DNA of 64,000 nucleotides, taken from NCBI GenBank assembly GCA_030685235.1, contig MU839243.1:1-64000 (forward strand), written 5' to 3'. Positions 24,114-49,494 of the stretch are shown in pieces. The DNA comes from Copromyces sp. CBS 386.78 (Eukaryota > Ascomycota > Sordariomycetes > Sordariales > Sordariaceae). A program made the position numbers and the translations under genes. Under the pieces are notes generated by a model. The model saw only the letters and a program-made list of their open reading frames with translations. It searched no databases and was not told the origin of the DNA. Within the stretch, counting starts at the first letter, position 1. Each line of letters opens with the position of its first letter.

Positions 24114-25056
24114 TCAAAAGACCAGTGGAGACACGCTCTCGGGAGCTCCGAAGCCGCCGGCACCGCCATCCCCATTAGGAGGATCCATGTCCTTACCGAA
24201 CGAGAAGCCAGTAATGGGAAAATCATCCAAAAGAAGTTCGAGGTCCATCTCCGAGTCGTCGTTCTCGGACTCTTCGTCGTCTTGGGTGTTCGGAGTCATC
24301 CTTCTTTGCCGTGTCTTTCTTCTCGACGCGGCCGTGTAGATCACCACTTTTCATGTGGTTGTTGTTACTAGCGCTGCCAGCAACACCCGGACCTGAACAT
24401 TTGGCCGTCTTTGCCTTTGGGTTGGCCGACGTACTGGTCGAACCAGTCGCGTTCCTCCGGTTGCCTCTGTCCTGGCGCTTTCTGCCAAGGCAGTGTTCGC
24501 AGAGTGACTTGGGCGTGTTGTTCGCCGCAACCCGCTTGAAACAGTTGGAGCAAGACCAGATGCCCTGACTGATCCGGGTTGTGATCAATGCAATGGTGGC
24601 TCTGTTCGGCCTGTTGCGGAGGTGGCGGAAGCACCTGCTCGCTCCCGCTTGCTAAATGAGAGACGAGCAACCGCCTTTGCCGCCTTCGCCTTTATAGGTT
24701 GTGGTCGGTTGAGGTGATAGTGGATTGAGTGCTCTAGTTGTTTGGGGCGCGCTTGGCTGTCCTTGGTGATGGTGTCCTTGGTGGTGGTGTACGTGGGGCA
24801 TGGGGGACGGGTGCATGTGAGGAACACATCTATTGACCTGGTTCTGCACATAGATCTGGTGATGATCTCCGCCCGGGAAAGAAGGGGTACCGATGTTGGC
24901 GGTGCCGGTAGCCATCCAGCCGGGCCGAAGAAGTTGCGAGGCAACCGATCCGGTAATACTCGGAGTCATACTGGGAGTCGGACTGAGACGACTCATACCT
25001 CTTCTGCACAAGTCGGGGGATGATTCACAGCAAACGATATGAAAGTCAGACAACAT
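24114..25056 (-). CDS. Cys/His-module family member A (in-frame TAG)
   Basis: From the ATG at 25056 (alternative ATG 24996) 134 codons lead to G-G-C-S-S-L-I, then TAG (24654-24652). Coding continues in the same frame with Q-A-G-A-S-R-C-F-R-H-L, W-S-C-S-N-C-F-K-R and L-C-E-H-C to a stop at 24223, 277 residues in all if TAG is read as Trp. The upstream part is Pro/His/Thr-rich and matches member B (T-P-S-x-T-G-S-V-A). Compared with B there is one extra base in a CCC run near 24284-24286; the frame after the shift (24283-24114) encodes B's acidic C-terminus D-D-E-E-S and G-G-F-G-A-P-E. So A ends in an alternative basic tail or is frameshifted. A is a 5'-truncated tandem copy of B. Function unknown; the C-x2-C/C-F-x-H pattern suggests zinc binding. 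Confidence 0.6.
24635..24673 (-). promoter_or_regulatory. TAG in hairpin loop, member A
   Basis: On the minus strand TGCTCG pairs with CGAGCA and, after one bulged T, CTCTC pairs with GGGAG. The loop ATTTAGCAAGC holds the TAG. This is the kind of structure in which fungal A-to-I editing sites lie. Pairing was drawn by eye. Confidence 0.55.
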
Positions 25057-25319
25057 GAAAGCAAGCAATAATTATAGAGCTACCTGATTCAGCTATAAAG
25101 TAAAAACCGGAGGCCGACTACATAGGTGACCTAAGGGGATGCCTTAACCATTCCTTGGACGGACTTTCGAGTATGATTAGAAGCCTCTGATGTTCCCATC
25201 GGCAACCACTGTAGTGGTTACCTCTTTCCCGCTATTCGTACACGTCCCGATCTCCTTGATGCCAGGCCCGTCTCGGTTGTTTCGGTCTTTGTTCTGGCAT
25301 GGTTAAGCCAAGGACCCGG

Positions 25320-27270
25320 TTAAAAGACCAGTTGAGATACAGTCTCCGGGGCCCCAAAGCCGCCGGAACCGCCATCGCCATCCGGGTCCGAATTCTTATT
25401 AAATGGGTAGTTCTGCATGGGTACATCAACAAAGGAGTCATCCTCGCCCGCTTCGTCCTCTTCAGAGTCCTCCTCGTCGTCCTGGACACTTTGTTCGGTC
25501 TTGTGCAAAGCTCCCGCTCCGGTCTTGAGGATCCGGCCGGTCAGGACTCCAGATCCCTTAGGTGGAAGCTTCGCACTCGAAACAGCCAAGGGACCCGCAC
25601 CAGAGCCACTAAGCTTGGTTTTGCTACCCTTCTTGGGATTGACAGACGTCTGGGTCGAATGAGTGGCCTTCTTGCGGTTGCGGTTCACTCTGTCCTCGCG
25701 CTTCCTGGTGATGCAGTGATCACAGAGACAATTCTGATCCCGAGCAGTCCGCTTGAAGCAGTTGGTGCAAGACCAAATGCCTTGGAGGTGACGCTCGATG
25801 ATCAGGGCAATGATGCGTTTACCGGGGCGGTTCTGGAGGTGTTGAAAGCACCTGCTCGCTCCCGTCTGCTAGACGGTAGCCGAGCAGCCACCTTTACCAC
25901 CAGGGCCCACGCAAGTGCCAGTGGGGACAATCGGCGTGACTGGCTGATTGTGTGCGCTTGAAGAAGAGGAGTTGTCGACGTTCAAGGTATTGGCGCTGGT
26001 CATCCAACTGGGTGGAAGAAGTTGCGGGGCAACCGAACCGGTAAAGCTTGGGGTGATGTTGGAAGCCGGACGGAGGGGAGTGTTGTTGTAGGTGGTACTT
26101 CCATCAGTGGCTGGAAGCTCAACGATGCCAGCGGTGTTCACATTGCAGTTCCCGAACACTTGGCCCGCGTCGTTGTTCGGAGTGGCCACGCCGTTGACAG
26201 GGGTACTGGAAGAAGTGAGGAAATTCGCCAAGTCGTCAGGAGGACTCTGGGAAAGAGCAGGAGAAGGGATTCCGTGGTCATATCCAACAGCCAGGCTCTG
26301 ATATCCAACTCGCCTGGACATGTTCGAGTTCAAAGCCTGAGGAGGCGGGGCTATCGATGGGGCACCCAAGCCTTGGGTGTCCGGGAAGCGGCCCTGGATT
26401 CTGGATGCCTCTAGACCCAGGCCGTTATTGCTAGGAGAAAGCGAGGTGGTGAAGCTGATATTCTCGGTACTAGCGTGGCTGGTGTTGGACGGGATCTCCA
26501 CGGAAGCAGAGGTATCGACCTCGGGCTCTGTGTTTGGTGGAGAAAGTAGAGGTATGGTGCTGGGGTTATCGACTAGGGTAGCGGACATGGAGGAGACTGC
26601 TACAGGCTGAAAAGAGGTAAAGGTGCCGACAGTCCCATGGGAGATGTTGACGGTGGTTGAGTTCTCATTGTTGGTTGTGGTGGCGGACATTGCCACGCTC
26701 TCGCCGCCTTTCAGGGCGACGTCGTCGTCGCGGTCTCCGGCTGATTTTTTGCCTTCTTGGGGGCTGGAGGCAACGGCTGTGATGGTTATGTTGCTGTCGC
26801 TGGAATCAGCCGGAAAACCGAGCATGTTCTGATCGCTTTCTGGTTCGAAGACAACGAACTCCTCCCAAACTATATCCGGGCAAGTGCAACGCTCATCCTC
26901 CTCCGTCGCCATGGCTACGTGTTGAGCAACGGGCTCCTGGTAGTCGACGACTGTTAGTTTGTTGTGATACAATGCTCTTGACGCATGGTTTCTTACCTCG
27001 GTTCTGCCAACTAGCAAGCTGTCAAAGCCCTCGAAGTACGAATTGTGCTCATTCATGTCGTTCAAGGAGTAGTCGTTCTCTTCTTCCAAAATCGCTCTTC
27101 GGCGATCTTCCAGTTGCTTTTTATCAAAAAATGTCAGGTTCTGGTCATTATCAGGTAGTGTACCCGTGCAGTATGGGATATGGAGACGGGTTTCTTACCT
27201 CGTTGATCCCCAAAGGGTCGTCATCAAGAACTCCAAGCACCCACTGGTCAAAAGGCACCTTGGGTGACAT
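25320..27270 (-). CDS. Cys/His-module family member B (three exons, in-frame TAG)
   Basis: Exon 1 is 27270-27199 (24 codons from ATG), exon 2 27116-26997 and exon 3 26936-25320. The introns (82 and 60 nt) have GTAAGA donors and branch sites CTGAC and CTAAC; both are phase 0. The N-terminus is acidic (D-D-D-P, L-E-E-E-N), and the middle 300 residues are Ser/Thr/Pro-rich and probably disordered. The module starts G-G-K-G-G-C-S-A-T-V, then TAG (25871-25869), then Q-T-G-A-S-R-C-F-Q-H-L, W-S-C-T-N-C-F-K-R, L-C-D-H-C. A Lys-rich stretch and an acidic tail follow, with a TAA stop. The protein is 419 residues if TAG stops translation, 602 if it is Trp. The long intact frame on both sides argues against a dead gene. 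Confidence 0.75.
25849..25893 (-). promoter_or_regulatory. TAG in hairpin loop, member B
   Basis: On the minus strand CTGCTCG pairs with CGAGCAG (7 bp) and, inside that, CCGTC pairs with GACGG; the five-base loop is TAGCA. It is one of the strongest hairpins of the set, with the A of the stop codon in the apical loop. Confidence 0.65.
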
Positions 27271-28725
27271 GATTCGTGTTGTTTTTAGAGGTACCTGCTA
27301 TGCTGGACTTTGTACACCCAAGGTAGGGCTGAGTAGGATGCGGAATGGTAAGGTATGGACCAGGTTACGAGGGGTGCTTCTCTCATATGCCTCTAGGTAC
27401 TGTCCTAATTTGTTGTAGGAAGTAGAAGGGGAAAGGATTGATGCTTCAGGAGAATATTTAAAGGTATGGGATAGTTGTAAATAAATGATAACCTGAGGTG
27501 GACGACAGGTGAAGGCGTCAAGGCGGTGAGATATCGCCCTGACATATGGGAGATTTACACTGATGTCCTCGATAGACCAATAGCATGGTACTAACTGTCG
27601 CCTTATGGTTGGGATGCCTTCACCCTTCACTGGGAAAAAGGCGGTCACCGAGAGCAGGACAGTGTCAAACTGTGTTCCCGCCAAATGACCAGAAATTGGT
27701 ACCTAGTGACAATGAACACCTAACGTGTTCATTGCAAGGCTGTCAGTGTCGTCTCACAACTGACATGTGGACATGGCTGCCAGCTTGGTATCCTGCTAAC
27801 CGCACCATGATATCCTCGACTCAACAACGGGGGAACTGCGAAATTCTTCGCCATGACGGATTCGGTACCACATTGTTGTACTTATATAGAGACAATCCTT
27901 TCTATTTCCTTTCGTTCTCTGTTGAGTTCGTCACCGATACCATGCTGCAACGTTGGAACTCTTTGGGTCGGCTCTCAAATTGTACCCATGCCTAGAGGTA
28001 TTCTCGTACAAGCAATGATGGGGTATCAAGCTGCAAGACTCAATCCCAAGTAGAAAGAAGTAGGTATGGAGTTTGGTAATATCAACAGGCTCGGTGCATT
28101 ATGAGAAGATAGACGTTTCGCTTCTGTAGAAAGACATGAAGCTCGAGTGTCTTGACATCTCCCATTTTCTCGGCACTCGCTCGAAAGTCACTTTGGCCGG
28201 CAGAATTTGTGATAGAGATAAGCAGAGATAAGTCACTTGTACCGTTGATGGCCCTCGAAGGAACTGCGTCGACGAGAGGCTTGTAATTTTCGAGTGTCTT
28301 CCTTCGCTCGTCGGGGTGAGTCAACCGCCTGCCCAGCAGTAGATGCACGGACAACCTGAATTTTCGGGGCCCAGAACAGGGCCAAAACAAAGGGCGTGAT
28401 CCCTGTACATTGTACAATACAATTGTTCAGGGATCGGTGGGAAAGAATTTGGACTTCCAGGGTCGACGGGACAACCTGAGGAGTGTATGAGCCAAAGTGA
28501 CAGTCATCTCCCAGGGTCGCAGTATCCTGCTAACGTGGGATGCACCGTGCATATAAAGCACACCAGTTCTTTGCCCACCTCGAGCCCCCGAACTCTTTCT
28601 CTCCTCATGCAAAGTCACAACTGCTGAACTGCATCTCCGGATTTCTGCGACATCGGCACATCTTCCCCCGCGCAAGAGCACTTGGAGCACTCCTTATTCC
28701 AACCCCAACCACCATTATCATCATC
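27271..28725. other. Divergent promoter region between members B and C
   Basis: No gene is supported in this 1.45 kb. It must hold the promoters of B (minus) and C (plus). A CATATAAAGC box (28550-28559) lies about 170 bp before the ATG of C. CCTAGAGGTA-type motifs occur near 27285, 27390 and 27991. Confidence 0.5.
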
Positions 28726-30018
28726 ATGGCACCATACCAGAGAGCCTCTGGCGCCCATGCGCAATCCCCAGCTCGCGGCATTGTTCCCCGCTCGCTTCAT
28801 CACCGCATCGAGCGTCCGCAAGCCCCTTCAGCTGCTACCAGATCCGTCGCTGCCAGGCGCTACGCTATCCTCCGCCACCAGCTTCCCAGCGAGTTGCTTG
28901 CCTCAGCGGTCCAGGACAACACCACCCATCTCTTGGTCCCCCATGGCCTGTATCTGCACATTCACGCCAGTCAGCCCCCACGCGCCGTCATCTCCAATGA
29001 GGATCTGAGGCGCTATATGAACTTGGACCCCAACCGTCGCGACGAAGACCTTACCATGGGTGATGGACACCATCCTGTCAGTTCGGGTTCCCTTCTCTTC
29101 AAGTCCACGCCAGCAACCAACCAGGCTCATCATCATCTGGTCGCCTGCAGTCAACACCAGGCAGCTTCTTGTCCCTCTTTTCAACCGGCCGATCCGATTT
29201 CTCCTCAGCAAGCGATCTCCGTGGGCGCTCAGATCCCTTCCCCTGTGATTCATTCGTTCTTGGCCCCCGGTCCGCTGGCCATGTCTGCCCTTTCCATGTC
29301 CACGTCGGATGATGGTACCGCACCTCGCATTTACTTCCAAGAGCCGGCTAGTGAAGTTTCGGACTTTTTCCCCGCCGCACCGATTAGCCCTCAGCAGAAT
29401 TTGACCGTCCATGATCTGGCCATGCTGGACTCAGCCGATTCCCCGAGGGTCCCGACTTGGCTCTCAGGGTTCGAAGAGTCTGTGGCCGCTTCTCAGGAAT
29501 CCTCCAGCAACTCTGAGGTGTCCTTCACCGTTTCTTCGACATCCACTCACAAGTCCGATCTGGACTGGCTTGTGTTTGGCGGCCGACCTCTCGTCTGGGC
29601 GCGTACCGATGTCTGCCAGCACGGAGACTGCCGGACCTTGGCCTAGCAGCCCAAGGCCGGTAGATGCTTCGAGCATATGGACAGCTACAGGACGTTCAGT
29701 AGGGGAAAGCGGGAGTGGATCGCCGACATCCACAGGGAGGGTTTCTACCTTTGCACCGGCCGGTACGACGCAGCAATTAACACTCCTAACACGCTTTGCG
29801 CCAAGTGTCAGAATCGTAAGGCCAGGAAGGCAGCCCAGAGGCAGGATTGGAAGAATTTCTTTGTTTCAGTCTTCACTTCAGTCTTCACTTGGCTGGAAGG
29901 CATCGACGAGGAGGAGCAGGAGTCTCATCCGCAGTGGGAGGGCACATTGGGCGACATCAAGATGGAGAGCGACGAGGAGATGGATGCCGATATTAAAAGT
30001 AAACCTAAAGATGAGTAG
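28726..30018 (+). CDS. Cys/His-module family member C (in-frame TAG)
   Basis: The start ATG at 28726 is in good context (ATCATCATGGC) and is shared with members D and E (M-A-P). 306 codons lead to D-V-C-Q-H-G-D-C-R-T-L-A, then TAG (29644-29646), then Q-P-K-A-G-R-C-F-E-H-M, a W-I-x-x-x-H-R-E-G-F-Y-L-C-T segment, N-T-x-C-A-K-C and an acidic tail; 430 residues with Trp at the TAG. The first C-x2-C pair of other members is here C-T-G-R-Y-D, so one Cys is lost. The N-terminal half is Pro/Ser/His-rich. The frame ends at a second TAG (30016) after which G-E-D-E-D and TAA follow, matching the end of D, so that TAG may also be a lost codon. The 3' flank is duplicated with D. Function unknown; the module looks zinc-binding. 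Confidence 0.7.
29625..29666 (+). promoter_or_regulatory. TAG in hairpin loop, member C
   Basis: CTGCCGG and CCTTGG on the left pair with CCAAGG and CCGGTAG on the right, with one bulged A and one G-T pair, around the nine-base loop CCTAGCAGC. About 13 base pairs place the TAG in the apical loop, the clearest case in the window. Confidence 0.7.
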
Positions 30019-30354
30019 GGCGAGGACGAGGACTAAACTATCACATAAGTTAACAGCAGCGAGGAAGAGAAGGACTACAGCTATAACGATATCTATGGTA
30101 ATCACTCGCATTTCAACAGTTCAACCCTCTTAAGCCGCCCACCTGCCCCTAGGACGACATATTTTAACGAGGGGGAAAAGGGAATAGGGTCTACTTACGC
30201 AATGACTAAGGTGGAATCATTTACGCTTGGATGTAATAAGATATCGAGGGTCTGTAATAGAAGGAAAGCAGAGGCATAAGCTCTATATCGATAAAGGTCG
30301 TACCTATACATCACATCAGCTACTAGTACCTAGAGGTAGTTTTTCTCAACGATA

Positions 30355-30998
30355 CCGCAGCGGAAATATAAGGGTGGTGTCTTTCGCAGACGGGGGCATC
30401 TGCCCATGCCTCAGTTCCTATAGCAGTCTAGCATAATGGGCCAGATTTGTCGTCTGGGCCAGACGGTTGAGGAAGCCTTCTGATTGGTCGGATTTGGGTA
30501 TAAAATAATAAAAGCCAAAGACCCTTATAAGGACCTTCTAGAGGCCACTATAGGGGTCTTTTATTAGTACTAGTCTTGGTGGTTATTGTAGCGGTTTTAG
30601 TGAAGAAAGATTTCGACTTTGAAATCCGAAGAAGGGTACTAGGTTTTTACAATTGTACGAAACTTTTCGCGCGAAAAAAACTTGCTACCAATTGGAATCG
30701 AACTGGCGATCACACAAATGAAAGCGACGATGAAAACTATTGAGCCACTGGCCCAATTGATTGGAAATGAGTTTCGTTCTTTCTTTTAATATAGGGTGGT
30801 TGAGTTTTGATAGGAAAATAAACTTTCAGAAGAATTACCGTCAATGAGTTTTAGCGACTATCTATAGGGGGTAATGTGATTGGCCAATTAGAAGGCTTCC
30901 TTAACCGTCTGGCTCAGACGATTTATCTAGTCCAACTACTTTATCTACGGCAGACGACCTCCTCTAGGCCAGATGCTATTTGTATTTTTCCGCTATGG
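30355..30998. mobile_element. TA-inserting TIR element, copy 4, with paralogous empty site
   Basis: The 644-bp element runs from CCGCAGCGG to CCGCTATGG with TA on both sides (30353-30354, 30999-31000). The flank downstream of member D reads CAACGA-TA-GTATGAAGC (33503-33519), which is the same site without the element. The insertion therefore came after the C/D duplication and duplicated only TA. It carries the tRNA-like core at 30689-30765. Confidence 0.9.
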
Positions 30999-31000
30999 TA

Positions 31001-31758
31001 GTATAAAGCTTGAGCTACTAGACATCTTACCTTATATACCGTAACTTCCGTATCGACCTTCTTCTCTAATATCAACCCCGGCCATTCTCCGCTACCAGGC
31101 CGACAATATACATCCCCTTATAGACTCAAACCCCAATCAACATAACCGGACGTCTCATATTGTGTCTTCTATTACATCGGTCTTGTGCCTTTTCGTCTCA
31201 CAACTAGCAGCACGAGTAGATATTGATTCCCAACTCCGGAACTACACGTATGTTATGTCAGGTGGTCCCAGCTTGGGAACATGAACCTGAGCTGGTCCCC
31301 CGAAGGCCGGATCTGTGGCCAGCAGGTGACTATATGTAAATAAGAAGGCTTTGTTCGTGACTTTTTCGGCGGCGATGGGGTTGTCATCGGACTTCTCGTT
31401 GTAAGCTTCAATCGCGTACTCCAGGACGGCGTCGTTGATCTTTCTCGCCTCGTTTCGCCACACGGGGTGGCATCCTCCGTCCTATTCGGCCCATCCTGTG
31501 CCCATTGCCGCTGAGTAGGCTCGCTCGCAGCGTTTTTCAGGTTGTCTTCAAAATTGCACACCGGCAGTGACCGCACACTGCAATATTGGTAAAGGGGATA
31601 ACGGGACAAGACACCCACTAAGGTGGACATGGGAAATATCCTACCCATCCATGGGCCCTATAAATGCACCTCTCCTTCGCACAACTCGAGGATATTGCCT
31701 TTTTTTCTCCCTGCTAACAGCAAAGGCATCTTGACATTCTCTACTCAAGACATCAACA
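31001..31758. other. Upstream region of member D
   Basis: No gene is supported; a minus-strand frame of 131 codons (31253-31648) has no recognisable domain. A CCCTATAAATGCAC core promoter lies at 31659-31672, about 100 bp before the ATG of D, and resembles that at 22743. Confidence 0.45.
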
Positions 31759-32667
31759 ATGGCACCCTTCCAGCCGACCACCGGCACTCGCCTGCGCCCC
31801 TTGGCCCAGAGCCATTTCTCTCCGCACTCGACTCATCATCGTGTTGAGCGCTCAAGTCTTCCCCCGGATGTCGTCAGGGCCATCGCGGCCAGACGCCAGG
31901 CGATCTACCACCATCGACTCTGCGATGAGCTCCTGTTCGTGGCTTCTCAGGCCTAGGAAAACATACCATGCCTCATGGACATGGACCTCTCGAGCGCTGC
32001 TCCTGATTATGCCACTCCTCCTCCTCCCGCTATAATAAACGATGAGACGGCCTAGTTCTTCGACTTCGGCGCTTACGAGCGTGACCACCAAGCGGCCATG
32101 GGCGTCATGGAGGAAGATGTTTCCGGGTTCTTCCACGGTCGAACCCATGCCAGCCGCTCCCACCATCGGCGAGCAAGAAATTCCCCATGCCTCGTTGCAG
32201 GCGACAAATCCCGCCGTATATCAGTCAGCCAACGACAATCAGTCAGTCGGCCAAGTTATCATGAGCGACAATCAGTCACCTGGAGCTCCTCCGCCGACCT
32301 CGACGCTCGAGACTCGAGTTCCCTCTCAATACCACACTTCAAGCCCCATTTCTGTCGCTGAATCCGAGCCGGCCGTCGCCAACAACCATCCGCCCGTCTC
32401 TCATGTTGAAGCCCATTCACATCCAGCTGCAATTTCCAACACCCAAGTGGAAAGCTCTGCTCTCACAGCTGGTCCTCCTCGCCTGACAGCCGAGGCTTTG
32501 GCACTTATTGATCAGGCATTTCCTCCGACTCTTCAACAGTTGGGAGCCCAGGCGCCTTCCTTAGCTACGTTAGCCGCTTCCGATGCTGCCGACGCACAGC
32601 TTGCCCCCATCGTCCCCGGGCCGCCCATTATCATCGCCCATACCGAGGAGAACATCTGCCGTCGCGA

Positions 32668-32704
32668 AGCCTGGGCAGCTCTGGTCTAGCAGCCCGGAGC
32701 CCGC
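32668..32704 (+). promoter_or_regulatory. TAG in hairpin loop, member D
   Basis: CTCTGG pairs with CCGGAG (one T-G pair) around the nine-base loop TCTAGCAGC, and GGG with CCC further out beyond a bulge. Loop size and stop position equal those of C, E and G. Confidence 0.55.
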
Positions 32705-32984
32705 AAGTGCTTTGACCACCTCGACAAGAAGTTCAGTTAGGGGAAAGAAGAAGTGGATCGGATCCCTCCACAGGGACGGCTTCTACCTGTGCACCGACCG
32801 CTACGACGCGGCGGTTAGCACTGCCAACACGTTTTGCAACAAGTGCAAAGCGCGTAACGCCAAGGAGAACAAGGCTTGGGACGACTACTTCGCCCCCGTA
32901 TTAGCGTGGCTTGAAGACGTCGAAAACGAAGAGCAGGAATGGGTTGGCATTTTAGGCAATAGCGAGGAGGACTTGGAGAGCGAG

Positions 32985-33150
32985 GAGGATACGGAGAGCG
33001 AAGACGAGATGGATGACGATCTGAGCGATGAGGATATGGACAGCGAAGACGAGATGGATGACGATCTGAGCGATGAGGATATGGACAGCGAAGACGAGGT
33101 GGATGTCGATCTGAGCGAGGAGGACACGGAGAGCGAAGACGACATGGATG
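32985..33150 (+). repeat. 45-bp tandem repeat coding an acidic peptide
   Basis: About four units encode the 15-residue type D-M-D-S-E-D-E-M-D-D-D-L-S-D-E in the C-terminal tail of member D. Such purely acidic tails also end members A, B and F, and chromodomain gene 1. Confidence 0.7.
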
Positions 33151-33188
33151 TCGAACTGGAAAGTGCCGGCGACGAAGACGAGGACTGA

Positions 33189-34357
33189 GCTATCAGACAG
33201 GTCAACCGCGGCGAGGAAAAGAAGGACGACGGCGACAATGACGGCGGTGATTACCCGCAGTCCCGCACTTAAATAGTTCACCTCTCTCAAGCCGCAGACC
33301 TCGCTCAAGGAAGGCATGTTTTGACGAGGGGGATGAGGGAATACGGCCTGCATTTGCGAAGACCAAGGTGGAATCATTTGCTCCAATATGAGGATGGTTT
33401 GGGGGTCTGTAACAGAAGGAAAGCGGAGGCATAAGCTCGTACAAAGGTCATACATGTACCTGTACATCACATCAGCTGCTAGTACCTAGAGGTAGTTTCT
33501 CTCAACGATAGTATGAAGCTTGACCCACTGGACATCTCCATCTTACCTTCTATACCGTGACTTCCGTAATTGGTAGGATCTGTAGCATGTTGAAGGTGCT
33601 CGAAGCTGTGTTTCCAATAGTCCAATCACTCATAGTGAAGATCGCACTGTGGGCTTTCCCGGAACAACATGAAGGCAAGGTAGTTCGGTATCGACTGTTC
33701 CCAGTGCCGGCATCATTGGCGGAGAGATCAAGTTGTTAAATAGGTGGGCTCATGAAAAGCCAATTTAGTGGTGGTATTATGACTACCTAGGTAGAAGAGT
33801 TGCAAAGGAATGAAAGAAAGGCGCAGGGCGCAAAATTGGGGCAGAGGCGTCTCGGATTATTGCAGCTGGAGTTGGAAGTGTGTAAGAGTGGTTGAAACCA
33901 ATGAGGAGAAATTGACTGTTTGATTGGTCTGGGGAAGAGGGGGAAATTCCCAAGGTCTGCCAGTCCTCCAGCTAAAATACCCGAAAGTCGAAGAAGAAAG
34001 AGAAGGGTGGGGGACGAATACAGTGGAGACAAGTGTCCAAGATGCGCGATACCAGTGACGTGCTCCTGCAAGATCCTCCTGCCGCAGCACAGCATCGGGC
34101 AATTTGGAACTTGAACGTAAAGCTCATACACTCCTTCCTTATCAATACCTCGCATGTGCAGTACGATATACATGCCAAGCCAGCAGTTCCTTCTTTACAA
34201 CCCGCATTCTCTTCAGAGCAACAACCTCCAAAGAACTTCGATCCAAACATAAGGGAAAGGTCAGCTCTTCGGCCACTTCATCAACACCTGAACACCCGCG
34301 CACGCGAAGAGCAGCGGCAGTGAGCCAAACCAGCCACTCTTCAAGTCCTGGCAGACG
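33189..34357. other. 3' flank of member D and spacer up to Copia element 2
   Basis: The first 370 bp are homologous to the flank after member C, interrupted there by TIR element copy 4. They contain the shared AGTACCTAGAGGTAGTTT motif (33481) and the empty site at 33503-33519. Beyond 33600 nothing is recognisable; open frames at 33787-34382 overlap on both strands. The Copia at 34363 cuts this stretch; sequence resumes at 41395. Confidence 0.5.
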
Positions 34358-34362
34358 TTCTT

Positions 34363-34527
34363 TATTGAAGCGGAAGATATAGAGCAAGACAAAGAGGGGC
34401 AGAATACTTAATTGATTGAAGAGGAGAGAGAGATAGAAGGAGTAATCGTAAGGATCACAAATTATATACATACCCAAAGTAGGGAACAATCCTAATAAGA
34501 TAAAACGAAATACGAATAGCTTCAACA
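34363..34527 (-). repeat. 3' LTR of second Copia element
   Basis: It is 165 bp and differs from its partner at 41230 mainly by RIP-type changes. Its outer half is the less mutated one. Confidence 0.8.
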
Positions 34528-39928: not shown

Positions 39929-41229
39929 AATAATATACTTAATAATACTAAAGTTAATTTAATAGAATAGCTGGGGGATTTACCGAAGGGGCATTAAGAA
40001 AATCTCTGCTAAAACTTACTAAACCTCTAGGATTCGGCGAATTACTCTCAGAATTACTAGAATTCTAAAAATCGGAATAACTAGCAGAACTACTAGAATT
40101 CTAGCAACTAAAGGAATTTTATAGACCGTTTATAGAATCCGTAGAATAAAATATCTATAAATTAAATATTCGGAAAACCTAAATACTAATACGCAAATAA
40201 TTTAGAAGGGTAATAACTTTAAAACCCTATAAATTAATAAAGCTTAGTAGTAAAAGTAGTACAAAGGATATAAACGGAAAAGAATCAAAAAATAAAAAAG
40301 TAATAGTAATAAGAATATAAAATATATCGGGGGTAGAATTACTAAACGTTCTTATAGCGTAAAGAAATTAAGTTTTACGCGCAAAACAAGGGAAACTATA
40401 ATAATTTAAATATCTAATAACTATTACAAACTAAAGAAGCCGAAGCCGGAAATTATATTAATACAAATACCGCGAAACTAAAAATTACTGGGTCTTATCG
40501 GTATTACCGCACTTATCCAATATCGTTATACTTATTTATAAAAGTCCGCTAGAAGAATTTATACGCTTCGAAAGCCGAAAATAAATCTTTATAAATCGAT
40601 AGTAGAGGGTAGACTAAAACGGTCTAGCTAATTATAGAATTTTATAATACTATTCCAATACGTTTTCGCTATATTAATTAAGCCGAACTAACGAACAATA
40701 GATCGCGAAAACGAACTATAGGGTAAGTAACGTCCAATATACTTCCAATTAAATAATTATAATAAATATTTTAATTAAAATATAATTAAATAAGTAATTT
40801 TATTTACTCCGAAATAATTTAGATAGATTTAGCGAAGTATTAACTCCAATTTGTATTAAAAAGTACAATTTTAACGATATTAAATATAGGGTACGTTTTT
40901 ATCATTTTACTTTCGAAAAATCTTTCGACGGGATTAATAGGGTAGAACTATATTAAACGTAAACGAACGATTATCTTAGTAAAAACATTAGTTTTAACGT
41001 AAATACGTATTTTAATATTATAAATACGGAATATAGGGTAGTCCGTATACAATAGAAATAAAATAAATTCTAAGCGTACAATCTAAGTAACTACCGCATA
41101 GCGTCTTTATATATTGTAAAATAATAAATTCGAGTACGAAAAAGAATAAGGTAAGAAAAGGGTAAAAAAGGTATAAATTCAACTTATTCGTTTTTCGTAA
41201 ATGAGCGCGCGCAGTCTAGGCTTATAATT

Positions 41230-41394
41230 TATTAAAACGGAAAATATAGAGCAAAATAAAGATAGGCAGAATACTTAATTAATTGAAGAGGAGAGAAAAA
41301 TAGAAGGAATAATCGTAAGGATCACGAGTTATATACATGCCCAAAGTAGGGAACGATCCTAATAAGATAAGACGAGATGCGAATAGCTTCAACA
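41230..41394 (-). repeat. 5' LTR of second Copia element
   Basis: It is 165 bp; the part nearest unique DNA (41300-41394) keeps more C and G than the inner part. It is followed by the target duplication TTCTT. Confidence 0.8.
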
Positions 41395-41399
41395 TTCTT

Positions 41400-41777
41400 C
41401 TGTTTTCATCATCACCATCGGCACAGTGTGTCGGCTCTCACCACTCTAGAAGATGGGATGAGATGAAAAGCAGCCAGACACCGAATGCAACCAAGTGACT
41501 TTGTGGTGTCTAGGGATCTTAACGATGCTTACTAAATGGCGGATATATAGTATCGTCTATAATTGGCTGGGTTGCTTTCTAGGTTGCTGGTTCGAGACCT
41601 TCGGTTCACCTTCTTGGGCATTCAGCTAGCCATGGAAGTTAATCCATTTCGTTCTATAACCAAAGCTTACCTTAACCATAAAGTATCCTGCTCATGCTCT
41701 TTTGAACATTGGATACAGCATGTTGAGTTTCGTTAATGTCACGGTGTTTCTAAGTCGTACTTAGGTAGACATTCTAT
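41400..41777. other. Spacer downstream of member F
   Basis: No gene is seen. It should contain the 3' end of member F's transcript. Confidence 0.4.
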
Positions 41778-43071
41778 CTATTTTTGGGAGGCACCCGAAG
41801 TATCACTGTCGAAATCGAAACTCATCTTGGGGCTAGACCTCTGCTGAGGATACTTTGCCTCATCCTCCCCGTTCTCCCCGCTCTCATCGTTCTCGTTGTC
41901 TTCCCCGTTCTCGTCATATTCAGCGTCTTCGGAGTTCGGCGTACCATCACCACCACCATTGCCGGCCGAGTCCCTTTTTCTCTTCCTCAAACGCATTTCC
42001 TTGAACTTACGTCGGCATTCCAAGCAGTACAGTTGCTTGCTAGCAACCTCCTTTGTCATACAGCGAGTGCAGCACCAGATTCCCAGAGCGTGGCGCTCTT
42101 TAACAGCACGAATCGTAGGCTTGCCTACGGGCTTGCCCCATAAATGATCAAAACAGCGCTTCGCACCCGGCTGCCAGACGAGAGCGTTGCAGCCTCCCAT
42201 CTCTTTTAATCCCTTGCAGGTCTTTTTGGAAATTATGGGACCTCCAACCTCAACCGTGGAGCTCTGGCTGCTCTCACTACTAGTTTTGCTAGACTCAGCC
42301 TTTTTCTTCCTCCACTCCCTCGCGTACCTCTGCTTTTGGTTCAAGCGGCATTTTGGACAATACTTGTTTTTCCCGTCGGCCTCCCCGGTAAAACATCTGG
42401 TGCAGCACCAGATTCCCAACGCGTGGCGCGCTTTGATATCGTTGATGACTTGTTCCCTTCCAGTCTTTGGGAAATTTAGGGACGCAATATGAGCAAAACA
42501 CTGGGTGCGTCCCGGTTGCCAAACGACGGATTTGCAGACGCCAGACTCAAGAGGTATAGAGCAAGGTTCCGTGGAAATAATAGGAGAGCCTACCCGATCG
42601 CCGCGAGCAAGCCGTGAGATACCGGGAGTAGAGTCGAGGCTGCTGGCGCCGCTTCCAGCAAGAGACCGACTATCAGGAGAGGCGACTTGACGGTAGGCCG
42701 GGTCAAGGGCCGCGGGTACGTTGCCAAGTGGTTGAGAAGAGGAGGAAGTCGGCGGAACGTTGCTGTTGTTGTGGAAGGGGGTGGCAGATCCGTTGGATTT
42801 GAAGAGTGGCTGTCCATGTGCTACAATGATGGTATCGGCTGGCTGGACAATCGGGACTTTAGGTGCTTGTAGCAACTGGGGAATGGGAGCCCTGCGAGGG
42901 TGCTCAGCGTCATGGCTTGGAGTGGTGTCCTGTGTGGAAAAAGGGATATATTAGCCTGAGTCTGCAACCAATGTAGGACCGCCTTACCTTTTGTACTCCT
43001 CCATGATTATTTTCCGGACTCTTGCCAGATCGCTGGCTATCCGATGATCTGTCTGTTGCCCGTCTTTCCAT
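41778..43071 (-). CDS. Cys/His-module family member F (two modules, Trp intact)
   Basis: Exon 1 is 43071-42988 (28 codons) and exon 2 42929-41778; the 58-nt intron has donor GTAAGG and acceptor CACAG, phase 0. The product is about 411 residues. After a Ser/Pro-rich N-terminal third come two copies of the module: G-V-C-K-S-V-V-W-Q-P-G-R-T-Q-C-F-A-H with W-C-C-T-R-C and Y-C-P-K-C, then G-G-C-N-A-L-V-W-Q-P-G-A-K-R-C-F-D-H with W-C-C-T-R-C and Y-C-L-E-C. Each is followed by a basic stretch, and the protein ends in an Asn/Glu/Asp-rich tail. Cys and His spacing suggests a zinc-binding fold, possibly nuclear. Unlike A-E and G both modules carry TGG at the W-Q-P-G position, so this gene is the reference showing what the TAG replaces. 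The module is not one I can name. Confidence 0.8.
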
Positions 43072-44058
43072 GGCGTCGTGGGTTCTGAATGGCTGCTGAT
43101 ACTGTAGTCGTAATCGGAAACGTGGTATTTCTGTCCAAAAACAAAGGCACAAAAGGATACGGTTACTTGCGACAATAAAGAGGAAAAGAGGAGGAAGCAA
43201 AAGATTGGGCCCTTTGGCTTCGTTTTGTTTGGTGTCTTGGCGGGTGGCACTTGCCTCCACGAGCAGCACTTTGGAGTGCTCTTTCTCAACCACGCTCAAT
43301 TTCTCCCCAAGTCCTTTTCACCTGCCTGTGTTCCGTTTCCACAGTACACCTTCCTTCTTGTTCTTGATACCCGTTCTTGCTTCTGAAGTGGATTACTGTG
43401 ACATTGAACATCCAAGCGTTTTGGTTATTCCTCTAGGCACGTTGTTGATGGAAGGATGCTTGATCACTTTCTCTAATCCCCATGACAGTTTTGCGACGGC
43501 CTCTCCAGGTGAAGCGGAGGCGTATCGGACTATCGAAAAAAAGAAGTGCAGTGATGAAAGAAGGAGTGCAAAATATCAAGTGTAAACACGGAGTGCTAAA
43601 CACGATGCTCATCACGGCCGTGACGTGATGATATCCCGGCCTGGCAGAGACTTTGATGGCAACCTGTGTTTTGCCAGGCAACCTGGAGCCCAAGCCTGTC
43701 ATAGTCCGTAGGGAATTTCCCGGTATCTTCAAGCAACTCAACCTCTGTGAACATCGGGACATCAGTTCTCTACCAATTATTTCTTGTAGGATCTCGAACG
43801 TCGCCCTTCCACCTTCTGAACCTCCGGCAGTCAGGCTTACCAGCTCATTCATCTCGCGTCTCTTACTTTCAGGTTCCCCTGCCTACCAGGGCAACAAGAC
43901 CGGCTTATCAGAATGCTTCAGCTTTCTTCAGCGCCCTTTATGCTCCGCAGTCACCAAAACAAAGCAACAGCATCTTTCAAAGTACCATCGCGGTCTTGCA
44001 CCAAGGGTAGGTAACGTCAACATTCCCGACCCCCAAGAAGGCCGGCACAGTTGTCGAT
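43072..44058. other. Divergent promoter region between F and H
   Basis: No gene is supported. A possible 5'-UTR intron of gene H (donor GTAGGT near 44008, acceptor CACAG near 44050) ends just before its ATG. One CCTCTAGG word lies at 43431. Confidence 0.4.
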
Positions 44059-44913
44059 ATGTCATCATCCGCCACCAACATCGGCAGCTCATCCGATGAC
44101 CCGCTCCACCGCTCACTTGCTTTGAAAGTCGAGCTCGGCTTGTCCAAGTTCTACGAGAAACTCTGCCTTCCTGTATTCCAGGGCAGTCGGGAACGCTTGA
44201 CACCGAAACACATCAACCACATCAAGAAGAGTGGCATCGACGCCTCGACGCGGCTCTTCAACAACACCCATGTGCCGCCGAGCTCCATGCTTGACCCGAG
44301 TCTCTTGATGTTGACGCCTGACCACGACGAGATGTATGCGGATGACTTCTGCCTCAACTTGGATACCGATACATTCGTTGAGGAGGACGCCATCCCTGTC
44401 CCTGACAATTACGGCAACCACTTGGCCTTGGGTCACGATCCTCCGGCCATGGCTCCTTCAGAAGGCTTTATCTTTCTCGAGTCCCTCGTTGCTGGCTCTT
44501 CCGCCTCAGAGTGGAATCAGGCTCTAGAGCAAGCACTCGCCGCTGATGACGCTCAACGGATGGCTCCGTCGGCTCCGTTGGCTCTGGACAGCGCCCCGCT
44601 CGCTGCCCCGGCTGTCATTGACGGCGTTGATACCACCCACACCTCAGCTCAGAAGCAAGTTCCCATGGCGGAGCACGGCTTGACTCCGCCCGACTCTCCT
44701 ACCCCGGCGGACACCATCGGTGCCGGGTTGTCCGTCCTCGCAGGTTCAGACTTCGTCACTGATGCTGCTCCGGAGGCTGCTAGTGCTGTCGATGCTGTCG
44801 ATGCCACCGCTGTCTCTGGCAAATCGGCCGAGGACGTTACTCCTGCCGAAGACATCCACGAGGAGAAAATAGTTGTAATGTGGAGTCGTCTCAGAAATGG
44901 TAAACAGTACTGA
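44059..44913 (+). CDS. Unknown acidic protein H
   Basis: This is a 284-residue open frame from ATG 44059 with an ordered-looking N-terminal part (residues 20-60, L-S-K-F-Y-E-K-L, H-I-N-H-I-K-K-S-G-I-D) and a long Ala/Asp/Pro-rich remainder, ending S-R-L-R-N-G-K-Q-Y. It has no Cys/His module and no signal peptide, and I recognise no family. The neighbours on both sides belong to the TAG family, and its style (disordered, Ala/Pro/Ser-rich) is like their N-terminal halves, so it might be a member whose module was lost; that is only a guess. Base composition is normal and the frame is intact over 855 bp. Confidence 0.5.
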   Translation: MSSSATNIGSSSDDPLHRSLALKVELGLSKFYEKLCLPVFQGSRERLTPKHINHIKKSGIDASTRLFNNTHVPPSSMLDPSLLMLTPDHDEMYADDFCLNLDTDTFVEEDAIPVPDNYGNHLALGHDPPAMAPSEGFIFLESLVAGSSASEWNQALEQALAADDAQRMAPSAPLALDSAPLAAPAVIDGVDTTHTSAQKQVPMAEHGLTPPDSPTPADTIGAGLSVLAGSDFVTDAAPEAASAVDAVDATAVSGKSAEDVTPAEDIHEEKIVVMWSRLRNGKQY

Positions 44914-47470
44914 GTCGGTGTATGCCCCCAACCAAGGTGCGAAACGGAAGGTAGAACTGGCTCCGCGCTTCGTGGGAATGTGACGAACATCGGGAATAGG
45001 CTTGGGAATATGCTCTCAGCGCAGGAAAGCGATTTCGAATCGGATTCGCCATGAAGGATCCAACCTCGTTGCGGGCTGGATGGGCATTGGGCAGTGCCAT
45101 GTTCTCATAAACTCATCGTGTCGGAGGAGTGGGAAACCGGGTGTAAATAGCGCCACGAGTGCCTGGAGGAGTTAGCGAAGACATCAAACCTTTGGTTGTC
45201 CTCCATGGATCGCTCACTCCCTTTGTGCCTACCAATGCGTGACGTTTTTGAGGAAGGAATCAGTGTGTTTGTGCTTTCCATTGCTGGCGTTGCCATCGTT
45301 TGATCGGTTTTCTTCTTTCCCCTCAAACAAGGAAGGGGTGATGTTGTCGGCAACACCCATTTTCGATGCCCGTCAAGCGAGCAGGGGCAAGCAGGCAGCT
45401 GCCAGAACCCGACTGTTGTTGTCGCCCTTTAGGGGCAGGCTATAGTGGTGTGGATGGGCTTTGCTACTCTGCTATCTTGATCGGCATCTGTTGTGCAGCC
45501 TTGGTGTTAGCGTAGAATCTCGCCATGCGTCTGCAGTTGGCCCGGTGCGCTGTAATATAGCGGACATCCGCCAAACATGAACAACCTAGGACGGCGACAA
45601 GAAAGGATGCCGGCGGCTTGGCACACAAGACCATGGAATGCCAACAAAGGAAAGCGACAACGATGCGGAGTTCCTGCCTTCTTTGTTATGTCATGTTTCT
45701 AGGAACCACAGCACTTGCCGGTTTGGTTCCTGCTTTCATTCGCACACTTGGATCTAAAGCCCAACTGCCATGGCGTGATGCAATCTCGCGGCAGCTGCAC
45801 ATGGCATGCCGCGCGCGTACCTCCCCATGTTCGAGCAAGTCCATTCGGATTGCTGCTCAACATACATGTCTGCATCCTTGCATCCCATCTCAGGCAGCCA
45901 ACTCACGTCATGCAGTTTGTCCGGCCACGGAAAAGAAATCCAGCCATTTTCCTTCTCGCGCCATCTCCAGTCGTCGCCCCAACGTTGTTACCTGAGCTCT
46001 TATAAGACGGGCCGGACACTCCAATTTTTGAAGACCTCTTTCCCTCAACCACTTGGCCAAAGACAGCTTCCTTGCTTGGCGGATGATGTTCATCCCATTT
46101 CTGCTACGATTATTATTTCCTTTGCTAACTGCCTCAGTCCGTTAAAAGTCTAGGAACTCCTCACCTCGATCTTTCTCCGCGGTCGTCGCAAAGCTGAAGC
46201 CGGAGAAGCACTGCTCGTGGGCCCTCACAATCTTCTCCGTATGGTCATTCGCTACTCTCTCGCTGAGAACGGATCACGCCTCGATGACGACGGCCGGCAC
46301 TCTCCGATGAACTACTAGCAGTATCTTGAGGTTACCATTACCGACCGGTTCCGGAGGTTTTTCTCTGCTTCTTTCGTGGTTGGAGGTAGAGACATTGGCT
46401 CGATAAGCTTCTTTCCCAGCCTCCGTTGCAAGCTCGATACCAGAACTGGTGGACACACTTCTCAACACGACATCGCCAGGCCTCGACATCTCCCGGATTA
46501 CTGCAAGGAGGAGCTACATACCAGCTCCAAGAACCATCACCGGATGCCGCCATCTACGATAGAAGTCAACAAGTCAAGTTGCGACGGGCTCAGAAAGCTT
46601 GGCACCTGAAGCCCTCAAGAACCAAGATGTTCGCCACGAGAATTGGTGCTGTGTACATCGGAGTAACTACACAAATGGTGATGGTGGACCAATGGTCGAG
46701 AATATTGCCTTTATGACTATGGCGTATATAACGTAATGAGGTTCCTTTGCTTATCATCCTGTGAGTGACCGAATCTCCTTAATGTATTCTGCGGAATTCT
46801 TGACACTTCCTCTTTCCTCGCAACACACTGGAATCACTCACAAACTCCCTGTCCGCTCACGGTAGCTATCAGTTGGGAAACAAGCACATAACTTCCACTT
46901 TTTGGTTCGAGGCAAGGCATTGCTCCATACCGATTTTCATCCCAAGTGAGTATTAGGGATGGCCAGTGCTTGTCTCCCGAAAGCAATGTCACTGCCACTA
47001 CACGCAACGGAATCCCTTTGCCAGCAGAAGCTTCCAGACTGGCAGGCAAGACACGCTCATAGCAGAGGAGGGGGAGCGGCTAGAAGCCTGTGCACGATAA
47101 GCTATCGGGGGCCCTGTCAACCAGCAAGATTACGATTTTGGCCGGGCAGAATTGGGTTGTGAGCTTTCACCTCTTCTCAAAAATGCGGGCCAGCACCCAC
47201 AAAACAGGGGCAATAGCAGCTGAATAACGGGACCATAGGTATAAAATATACCCAATTGCATTCACTATCCCTAATCCTGTTTATTTGATCCGCACGGGAC
47301 ACTCATAAATTGCACAATCCGGAGATTCCCCTCAACCTCTTCCCCGTCACGCTCCAGTCCCTTCATCGTGACACCCCAGCACCTCGATCAACTCGGCTGT
47401 CAAGATCGCATCAAGAGCAACCTCGCATTCATCTAATCGGAAGTTGACTCTCGATCCCAACAACGCAAAA
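44914..47470. other. 2.5-kb spacer with a doubtful open stretch
   Basis: No gene is convincing. From about 45990 to 46609 one plus-strand frame stays open apart from TAGs at 46151 and 46315 (V-TAG-E-L-L and N-Y-TAG-Q-Y-L); the segment A-L-L-V-G-P-H-N-L-L between them faintly resembles H-L-L-V-P-H-G-L-Y-L of member C. It could be another decayed member. The promoter of E, with a TATAAAATATACC box at 47240, lies at the right end. Confidence 0.35.
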
Positions 47471-48454
47471 ATGGCTCCTCACCTGCCGACCATGTGCGGA
47501 GACGCTCACGAAAGCGCCAGCGTCCACCACCCTATGGATCTTGTCAATCACAATAACGAGGTTGGAACCACCACTGATCCCACTTTGGAGACTCCCTCAC
47601 CTGCCTCAGGCGCAAACAACAACAGCATCCATCAGGCTACTTCTCCTGCCTCTATCCAGGCCAGTGGCGATATCCATCAGGGTACCGTTCCGGCCCTGAA
47701 CGCCAATCCTGCTCAAGCTCCTGCTCCGGTCTTGAACGCCAATCCTGCTCAAGCTCCTGCTCCGGCCTTGAACGCCAGTCCTGCTCAAGCTCCTGCTCCG
47801 GCCTTGAACGCCAATCCTGCTCAAGCTTCTGCTCCGGCCTTGAACGCCAATCCTGCTCAAGCTCCTGCTCCGGCCTTGAACGCCAATCCTGCTCAAGCTC
47901 CTGCTCCGGCCTTGGACGCCAATCCTGCTCAAGCTAATGCTTCGGTCTTAACCATCATCATTCCTCATCCCGCCGGCCCGGCCTTAATGACCCTCCCTCC
48001 TCAGGCCACCGCTCAGATTTTGAACGCTATTGCCGCCCAGGTTCCCGCTCCGGCCTTCAACATTATTATTCTTCATCCCGCCGGCCCGGTCTTAATGACC
48101 ATCACTCCTCAGGCCTACGCCGCAGCCACAATTACCTTTACCGCATACGCCCTTGGTACCCATGGGCCCCTTCTCACGTCCACCATTTCCACCTGCCAGA
48201 AGGCATTAAATGATAGAATCTGCGGGATGCCGGCCTAGCAGTCCGGTGCTCAAAGATGTTTCGACCATTTATCTCGCCCTATGAGCAGGGCCACCCGCAC
48301 CCAAGTATTGGAACGTCTTCTACGCGGCGAGTGGACCTGCTCTGGCAGGTACTGCGGCGTCGTGGATACCCCGAATACCACCTGCGCCGACTGCAGAGCT
48401 CGGCAGGCTCGCTATCGCGCAGCTCGGAGGGAGGCAAATGCCGGTAACTCCTAG
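47471..48454 (+). CDS. Cys/His-module family member E (in-frame TAG, 12-residue repeats)
   Basis: The ATG at 47471 (M-A-P, context AAAAATGGC) opens a frame of 255 codons to R-I-C-G-M-P-A, then TAG (48236-48238), then Q-S-G-A-Q-R-C-F-D-H-L, E-W-T-C-S-G-R-Y-C-G-V, N-T-T-C-A-D-C and a basic Arg/Ala-rich end; 327 residues with Trp at the TAG. The frame closes with TAG at 48452. The centre is made of seven 12-residue units followed by a doubled segment (I-I-I-P-H-P-A-G-P). As in C and D the region before the module is probably disordered. The frame is intact over nearly 1 kb on both sides of the TAG, with no RIP-type damage. Function unknown. Confidence 0.7.
47699..47950 (+). repeat. 36-bp minisatellite in member E, seven units
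   Basis: Seven units encode N-A-N-P-A-Q-A-P-A-P-A-L with few changes. Near-identical units suggest recent expansion or contraction, so length should vary between strains. Confidence 0.9.
48222..48250 (+). promoter_or_regulatory. TAG in hairpin loop, member E
   Basis: CCGG pairs with CCGG around the nine-base loop CCTAGCAGT, extended by two G-T pairs. It is shorter than in B and C but has the same loop length and position. Confidence 0.5.
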
Positions 48455-48891
48455 GCTGGAAAAAACAGTGACGAAGACCATAGGCACTGCCTTGGTAGAT
48501 AGGGTCGAAAGACTATATGACGTGGAAGGGTATGGAGGAGATCGACATATGGTGGCTGGAGAATGAATCGGGGTTACACCTACGAACTACGGATCATCAC
48601 CTACCTAGTACTAGACTTCTAGTTGTGGCCTTTGACCGATCGCTATAAGCTAACATCGAATCCCACACATCCTTCTTCTTTTTGCCTCCAAACTATAGCA
48701 ACAATCATGACAATCGTGACAATGTCGATTTGGAGGACCGTGATATATATAAGGTACCTTACCTAGCACCAGGAGAACTCACCGTAGCTTCAATGTTAGT
48801 CCGCAATAAGTTCCTGTAGATACCTTACCTAATGGTGTATTACGGCCAAGACTTCAGCCATCCTTGATATTAACGGGCGCCATACTCAACA
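48455..48891. other. Spacer between E and G
   Basis: No gene is supported. A TATATATAAGG box (48743-48754) lies about 140 bp before the ATG at 48892. Confidence 0.4.
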
Positions 48892-49494
48892 ATGGAACAC
48901 TCCAGCCTTCTGGCCACAAAGTCTCTCCGACTTGCCACCTCCTCAGTTACATCACCAACTTCAATTCTCGTTCAGCGAGTGTCAGCCAATCATGGCCTCT
49001 TCTTTGACGAGGGAAATCTGGAAATTCCCTGCTCTGGCAGGTTCTGCCACGTCGTAGCCACGCCCAACACGATCTACTCGCAACTTCGACCTGGACACCG
49101 AACGTCGCGACCAACACCTGGCCATGAACGATGGGCATCACGGTATCCATTTGGGCGCCCCTTTGGTAGACTCCCTCATCGCCAATTCTCAGGGCCTGCA
49201 TCAGCCCGTTGTCGCAATTCCAGCTGGTATCTCTACCTACCTTACTAGCGAAAAGGTAATCGACGGACACCTCCAGTCTATAGAGCTCCGGCCTAGCAGC
49301 CCGGTTGCCACAGATGCTTCGAGCATTTACGTCCTTATATGAGCCTGGCCAAGCGCGCCTTGGTCCAGGAGCGCCTGGTGAGGGGCGAGTTTACCTGCAC
49401 GGGCAGGTTCTGCGGCGTTATGGCCGCTCCCAATACGGTCTGCGGCAATTGCAGACAACGGAGCCGCAACTACCGCCGATCTAGGCAGGGTTGA
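48892..49494 (+). pseudogene. Cys/His-module family member G (decayed, in-frame TAG)
   Basis: One frame from ATG 48892 leads to P-C-S-G-R-F-C-H-V-V-A-T-P-N-T, a degenerate half-module whose final C-x2-C is lost. A second frame then gives F-D-L-D-T-E-R-R-D-Q-H-L-A-M-N-D-G-H-H, which matches member C (N-L-D-P-N-R-R-D-E-D-L). The first frame resumes with Y-R-A-P-A, TAG (49294-49296), Q-P-G-C-H-R-C-F-E-H-L, E-F-T-C-T-G-R-F-C-G-V, N-T-V-C-G-N-C and a basic end with TGA at 49492. An extra TAG lies at 49246. It is a broken or composite member in which the TAG-containing module itself is intact. Confidence 0.6.
49285..49304 (+). promoter_or_regulatory. TAG in hairpin loop, member G
   Basis: CCGG pairs with CCGG around the loop CCTAGCAGC, identical to the loop of member C. 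Confidence 0.5.

Follow-up and report, generated by a model that had tools for sequence, protein, structure and literature searches.

A clustered Copromyces gene family sharing a UAG at a conserved tryptophan codon: candidate proteins gated by mRNA editing

Introduction

The first 64 kb of contig MU839243.1 (C165, 89.3 kb; genome size 49.8 Mb) of the ascomycete Copromyces sp. CBS 386.78, hereafter the window, raise the question of why a series of related genes should carry a stop codon at one and the same position. The window alternates between GC-rich islands and AT-rich blocks that bear a strong signature of repeat-induced point mutation (RIP). In the islands sit cysteine-rich modules. Two of them, both in one open gene, have the tryptophan (Trp) codon TGG at a position where six others carry an in-frame TAG. 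All eight positions of this column, first reported in an initial annotation, were located (Table 1). Copromyces belongs to the Sordariaceae according to a taxonomy lookup, as do Neurospora and Sordaria.

In fungal mRNA, the preferred sites of adenosine-to-inosine (A-to-I) editing have U at position -1 and present the A in a hairpin loop, as tRNA does with A34; conversion of premature UAG to UGG by such editing is known (PMC11156358, PMC4817773, PMC11087585). Genes with such premature-stop correction include PUK1, AMD1, FgAMA1 and others, and editing by Tad2-Tad3-Ame1 has been described in Fusarium (PMC4817773, PMC11156358). Sexual-stage editing is also described in Neurospora and Sordaria.

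We posit that the modules belong to an edit-gated family, in which A-to-I editing at one shared UAG would give rise to the full cysteine-rich module, and we consider this explanation very probable. The observations that carry it are the TAG/TGG column, the coding constraint 3' of the TAG, the register and wobble covariation of a hairpin, and the absence of RIP marks. The column, selection, covariation and the anticodon-like geometry of the hairpin also lend strong support to the proposal of the initial annotation that the full-length module would require editing of UAG to UGG.

Distribution of the stop codon

Whole-genome searches with single proteins and a profile search on parts of contigs found the family on three contigs (C165, C153 and C209). 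The genome searches score the best candidates only, so that all counts are minimum numbers and the family may be larger. The profile returned 38 rows, of which 31 cover the Trp column, with TAG in 23, TGG in six, TGT in one and CAT in one; the seven rows without the column include two fragments that do not enter the stop count below, one of which (C209:34022) contains a TGA and a TAG. Four further copies were read by eye. Two of them are decayed: a fragment that has TAG at the column (C153:13056), and a copy of the C153:57567 type that has TAA there and is broken by several further stops (C140:77491-77628). The other two are distant members, whose residue at the column is Glu in one and Leu in the other. 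In total, at least 37 copies are readable at the column: 26 have TAG, six TGG, four more distant copies another sense residue (Cys, His, Glu and Leu), and the decayed C140 copy TAA. The 25 TAG members referred to below are the 23 profile rows together with 32687 (member D of Table 1) and C153:25606, both read by eye.

Only one other in-frame stop occurs in the 31 column-covering matches, a lower bound since the matches are local and stops past their ends are uncounted. It is the TAG of C153:17852, which lies in frame at a later column of the module, the Trp column of this member being occupied by Cys (TGT). Matches to the profile serve for this count, since counting other stops or other TGG codons over the read-through frames would be circular, these having been selected as open. 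The terminal stops, readable in 19 of 23 genes, are of mixed type (nine TGA, six TAA and four TAG), and the difference between 25 TAG out of 25 at the column and four out of 19 at the gene ends is highly significant (Fisher p 1.7e-8; the decayed copies C153:13056 and C140 are excluded). The distinction drawn by the initial annotation between TAG at the column and random stops elsewhere holds among the Copromyces paralogues (TAG in 26 of 37 copies, one other stop in 31 modules).

Introns end in YAG, and the TAG could instead be a 3' splice site or be removed together with a small intron. The NCBI model of the open gene (member F) has an intron acceptor right after the Trp-Gln of its second module, and in C209:20602 a TACTAAC branch motif lies upstream of two candidate acceptors, a CAG 5 nucleotides before the TAG and the TAG itself. 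At the level of the family, splicing conflicts with a conserved Cys that at least 70% of rows have at a distance of five or six residues on the N-terminal side of the TAG, with the scarcity of CTRAY branch motifs 5-45 nucleotides upstream (two of 25 members), and with the six modules that exchange TAG for Trp without any change in length. We regard it as exceedingly improbable. The splice acceptor was accordingly dropped for the family, given the rare branch motif and the conserved Cys, while C209:20602 stays a candidate and may be a multi-exon gene, with branch motif and acceptor just upstream. The earlier Cys is what the family keeps before the TAG; the G-G-C-S-A first reported there was found in 24654 (with S-S) and 25871 only.

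Sequence evolution on both sides of the TAG

The TAG might also mark pseudogenes, created by RIP or by random G-to-A change at a hot TGG codon and never edited. RIP is able to convert TGG to TAG, RIP-mutated blocks flank the islands, and some copies are clearly decayed. The reading frames of the family nevertheless lack the RIP dinucleotide signature, with a TpA/ApT of 0.58 and a (CpA+TpG)/(ApC+GpT) of 1.33; in four AT-rich blocks the corresponding values are 1.26-1.35 and 0.27-0.33. Scattered stops are likewise absent from the profile-matched stretches, apart from the one in-frame stop that the local matches contain. True decay looks different: the C140 copy combines TAA at the column with several further stops, and no RIP signature was found across that locus.

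Coding constraint, moreover, persists 3' of the TAG. Nonsynonymous divergence (dN) after the TAG is 0.21-0.65 in 15 paralogue pairs, which are not independent as some members are reused, and synonymous divergence (dS) is at least 0.78 and saturated in six; the nine pairs with finite dS have a dN/dS of 0.14-0.43. These ratios show purifying selection on the stretch 3' of the TAG. In 13 of the 15 pairs dN is higher 5' of the TAG than 3' of it, with few comparable codons in several of them. In a tree built without the Trp column from 28 rows (23 TAG and five TGG), TAG and TGG change only twice, with weak basal forks, which suggests that much of the divergence among the paralogues probably took place with the TAG already present. 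A pseudogene origin appears very unlikely to us, also in view of the covarying hairpin described below, which would then have no reason to exist.

RNA structure around the TAG

The hairpin measure used here multiplies the number of pairs expected to enclose the A by the chance of the A being unpaired; its null consists of 500 protein-preserving recodings. The 25 TAG members have a mean of 13.7 against 7.0 in the null (Fisher p 3e-14), 16 of them being individually significant (p<0.05), and over +-50 codons the mean peaks at the TAG codon among the offsets listed. No joint effect was found in the eight non-TAG members (3.6 against 4.3, p 0.52), where p ranges from 0.26 to 0.88 in the six TGG modules and is 0.04 in the TGT member C153:17852 and 0.98 in the CAT member.

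In five of the six window members with TAG, the A of this codon falls within a hairpin loop by minimum-energy folding, so that the apical loop originally assigned to all six stands for these five; in 32687 the A is paired, though a hairpin in the shared register is possible. The nine-base loop string CCTAGCAGC, held to be nearly constant in four members, is exact in 29644 and 49294, while the other two read TCTAGCAGC and CCTAGCAGT. Genome-wide, CCTAGCAGC is not enriched (264 occurrences against 337 for a reversed control).

The stems share one register, in which a U stands just 5' of the A and the paired positions are symmetrical about the base just 3' of it. At least six pairs, with one mismatch allowed, form in 19 of the 25 members, compared with 5.2+-1.9 in the null and a maximum of 12 in 5000 recodings, and the two adjacent registers are near the null by this count of long stems. 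Only one of the eight non-TAG members, module 2 of F, reaches six pairs. In an ungapped alignment of the 25 sites over 35 nucleotides, 66.5% of cells pair as opposed to 55.8% with shuffled partners, and doubly changed cells number 43 against 20.5 expected, a value reached in 0 of 500 shuffles. All covariation measures drop when the register is slid by one base in either direction.

In the shared register third codon positions face third codon positions, and with wobble pairing to wobble the protein coding can hardly account for it. The inner wobble-wobble pairs are Watson-Crick in 53 of 75 cases (31.0+-3.6 with permuted partners, reached in 0 of 10000), in 12-33 of 75 when the register is centred on 45 other codons, and in 10 of 24 in the eight non-TAG members. 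The permutation tests ignore kinship among rows, which leaves the control on other codons unaffected.

The hairpin also bears on programmed readthrough, by which an amino acid would be inserted at the UAG during translation. UAG followed by C is a leaky readthrough context, and a C directly follows in 14 of the 25 members (the next codon is CAR in 14, AAR in six, GCG in four and AGG in one). The amino acids inserted at UAG by readthrough are Gln, Tyr or Lys, whereas the nearest non-TAG paralogues have Trp at the column (six TGG), which is the product expected from UAG editing. The CAR-YYA readthrough motif, moreover, fits only three of 25 rows, and the stem encloses the stop codon and would be melted by the decoding ribosome, so that something else must read the hairpin. 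We rate readthrough as highly improbable. On these data, readthrough, splicing and RIP each fail at least one result.

Predicted proteins

Of the 25 TAG members, 14 are intact: their modules are complete, and their upstream frames start with an ATG and span at least 98 codons. Their part before the TAG is mostly acidic (median net charge -8, negative in 11 of 14) and of low complexity by eye, and the following stretch of up to 75 residues is basic (median +7) with 4-6 Cys. No Pfam family scored above its cut-off in member F and four read-through TAG members, and over 28 modules the best E was 0.0053. A weak match to zf-C2H2_jaz is present in one module, the second of F (E 0.027, 15.1 bits against a cut-off of 22.6). 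A sequence search of the PDB yielded nothing significant, the best solved chain being TAF3 (E 0.013), and AlphaFold2 models with a predicted local distance difference test score (pLDDT) of 82-83 had no match to any solved fold according to Foldseek. The layout suggests a transcription-factor-like role by analogy with the proteins ZAO and CHE1, which are compared below.

Members in the window

The features of the window members are listed in Table 1. Relative to 29644, member D (32687) carries a single additional base about 50 nucleotides 3' of the TAG, after which the module resumes in another frame; the one-frame continuation ascribed to all six TAG members fails here, and given the frame shift D is probably a damaged copy. 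The member at 49294 looks damaged as well, with its short upstream frame. An additional module fragment lies directly upstream of it (window 49021-49110), and the N-terminal part of the member at 48236 has a tandem repeat of about a dozen residues, similar to N-A-N-P-A-Q-A-P-A-P-A-L (window 47690-47940). An open frame at window 9134-9700 (-), in an island between RIP-mutated blocks, contains a stretch resembling a chromo domain, which at 24.9 bits falls just short of the cut-off (25.1).

Table 1. Family members of the window, in window coordinates (p refers to the hairpin measure; bits to the profile match)
Feature	Position	Strand	Remarks
Member A, in-frame TAG at Trp column (24654)	24652..24654	-	upstream open to ATG 25056
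Member A, hairpin measure			18.4 vs 6.6 null, p=0.004 (synonymous recodings)
Member A, Cys-rich module	24454..24681	-	79.9 bits
Member B, in-frame TAG at Trp column (25871)	25869..25871	-	farthest ATG 395 open codons back; p=0.002
Member B, Cys-rich module	25680..25895	-	90.4 bits
Member B, hairpin core with TAG in apical loop	25852..25886	-	fold -28.5 kcal/mol over 51 nucleotides; family-site alignment
Member C, in-frame TAG (29644)	29644..29646	+	open from ATG 28726; farthest in-frame ATG 28540; p=0.002
Member C, Cys-rich module	29614..29844	+	68.3 bits
Member D, in-frame TAG at Trp column (32687)	32687..32689	+	p=0.66, not significant
Member D, module remainder in shifted frame	32745..32873	+	28.2 bits
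Member F, open frame of 390 amino acids with two TGG modules	41778..42950	-	annotated QBC45DRAFT_490232
Member F, module 1 (TGG 42521)	42315..42545	-	76.5 bits; p=0.66
Member F, module 2 (TGG 42176)	41982..42203	-	85.9 bits; p=0.39
Member at 48236, in-frame TAG	48236..48238	+	open from ATG 47471; p=0.088
Member at 48236, module	48212..48430	+	81.9 bits
Member at 49294, in-frame TAG	49294..49296	+	15 open codons upstream; p=0.28
Member at 49294, module	49276..49488	+	77.4 bits

Discussion

We propose that Copromyces possesses a clustered multigene family of zinc-finger-like proteins, known almost solely from its own genome, that would be gated by a shared premature UAG. The mRNA stem-loop around the UAG would hold the A in a place corresponding to that of A34 in the anticodon loop of a tRNA, and a tRNA-type fungal mRNA adenosine deaminase would convert UAG to UIG, to be decoded as UGG (Trp). 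Editing would join the mostly acidic low-complexity N-terminal part to the basic cysteine-rich module and give a transcription-factor-like protein, while the unedited message would yield a short form without the module.

As editor, Tad2-Tad3-Ame1 in sexual tissue is more likely than OLD, a ranking based on accounts of genome-wide editing by the sexual system in related fungi. Genes with DUF726, the domain of Ame1, are present in the genome by domain match. A DUF726 gene on C16 with a TAG in its match was considered as an edited editing cofactor and rejected, as the TAG appears to be intronic (the intron starts with GTAAGC). A variant within the edit-gated explanation, overlapping with it in probability, assigns the editing to an OLD-type deaminase in vegetative cells, with an antiviral or stress function. 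ZAO and CHE1 follow the same plan of N-terminal part, UAG and zinc fingers (PMC12754623, PMC11169179), the preference for the loop and for U(-1) is ascribed to OLD as well (PMC12754623), and a whole-genome search found two OLD-type (OTT_1508) deaminase domains. These are located on C190 and C62, whereas the ZAO genes adjoin their OLD; neither OLD-type nor DUF726 genes were found on the family contigs. With no Pfam zinc-finger family fitting the module well, and with DUF726 genes present too, we consider the OLD variant unlikely. The fruiting-body role given to the family in the initial annotation is one candidate role, because OLD, a second fungal editor that shares this preference, is described as responding to infection by mycoviruses (PMC12754623) and OLD-type domains exist in the genome.

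Several points weigh against an edit-gated family. We infer the edit, the Trp, the enzyme, the stage, the nucleic-acid binding and the role from sequence, and the binding is conjectured on the basis of charge and Cys pattern. Nine of the 25 TAG sites are individually non-significant for the hairpin, and three (C209:5650, C209:32844 and 32687) fall below their own nulls. The register one base 5' exceeds the null by mean pairs (5.80 against 4.83+-0.23). RNAalifold returned no consensus structure for the 35-nucleotide site alignment, and since this was so, pairs were counted for a named structure and by script. Truncation, a broken frame or the lack of a long ATG-led upstream frame affects eleven of the 25 TAG members, C209:20602 among them, and for this reason part of the family is, to all appearances, decaying. 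The NCBI model of member F (270 amino acids), whose intron removes module 1 and the start of module 2, leaves some doubt on transcript structure. Database searches with the proteins, which considered candidates within a length range sharing exact words, gave only Copromyces entries and one metagenome protein of 72 amino acids; this protein, from a 1.1-kb contig, resembles the part of C153:40451 after the TAG and is the sole relative found outside Copromyces.

More tentatively, and with somewhat less than even confidence, we picture a birth-and-death array of edit-locked regulators, whose copies arise, diverge and die while nearly all keep the anticodon-like UAG hairpin. Such an arsenal would be silent in ordinary growth and be released together by one editing enzyme, either for fruiting or in response to a conflict, with antiviral defence, allorecognition and meiotic drive as examples.

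It is a matter of debate whether mRNA editing that recodes proteins is adaptive or merely tolerated. An editable stop kept across deeply diverged paralogues, combined with wobble covariation, offers a direct test of this question and points to a hairpin under selection of its own. With about 25 natural variants of a single editing substrate, the family also lends itself to working out the rules of the enzyme. Its existence further suggests that entire families can be overlooked in the gene catalogues of such fungi, and that editing can serve as a master switch for a gene array.

Comparison with known systems

A structural parallel is the tRNA anticodon loop edited at A34 by Tad2-Tad3. A34 lies in a seven-base loop that is symmetrical about the base after the A, and the family shares both this symmetry and the U 5' of the A. 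It differs in its mRNA context and in the pair -3/+5, which would close a seven-base loop and forms in only 10 of the 25 members, being missing in 15.

Spk-1, a Neurospora spore killer, was considered as a possible relative and set apart by its published description as a small protein of 134 amino acids, in which two transmembrane segments are predicted and a Tyr codon is edited (PMC8092558).

The principle of premature-stop correction in zinc-finger genes is already known. In Neurospora, zao-1 and zao-2 are even a duplicated pair with premature UAG ahead of zinc fingers (PMC12754623), and together with CHE1 they make the claim of the initial annotation, that no family with such a shared site had been described, too strong in kind. 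In the literature searched, as far as the accessible portions go, we found neither a clustered paralogous family this large locked at one shared codon nor a wobble covariation of an editing hairpin. The OLD-ZAO system resembles the Copromyces family in its duplicated genes with UAG at similar positions and in a full-length ZAO zinc-finger form that arises only after editing (PMC12754623). The Copromyces family has far more copies and places the Trp within the cysteine-rich module itself. A whole-genome search found OTT_1508-type deaminase genes on C190 and C62 only and none adjacent to the family, and Pfam searches of F, four read-through members and 28 modules gave no above-cut-off match after the UAG to zinc fingers of the C2H2 type seen in the CHE1 homologue.

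CHE1 of Fusarium has an N-terminal part without known motif, a conserved UAG in a hairpin loop and zinc fingers behind it, and has suffered mis-annotations of the same kinds; it differs from the family as a single gene of C2H2 type with hyphal editing (PMC11169179). With the premature-stop-correction genes the family shares the in-frame UAG with conserved sequence behind it, the U at -1, the A in a hairpin loop and an automated annotation that sidesteps the stop (PMC4817773, PMC11156358). Conserved in-frame coding sequence follows the UAG in all but 32687 and the decayed copies, and the loop with U at -1 is present at the level of the family and in 16 of 25 members individually. Those genes are described, in the portions available, as single genes, whereas here about two dozen paralogues share one site, and the covariation of the stem can be measured.

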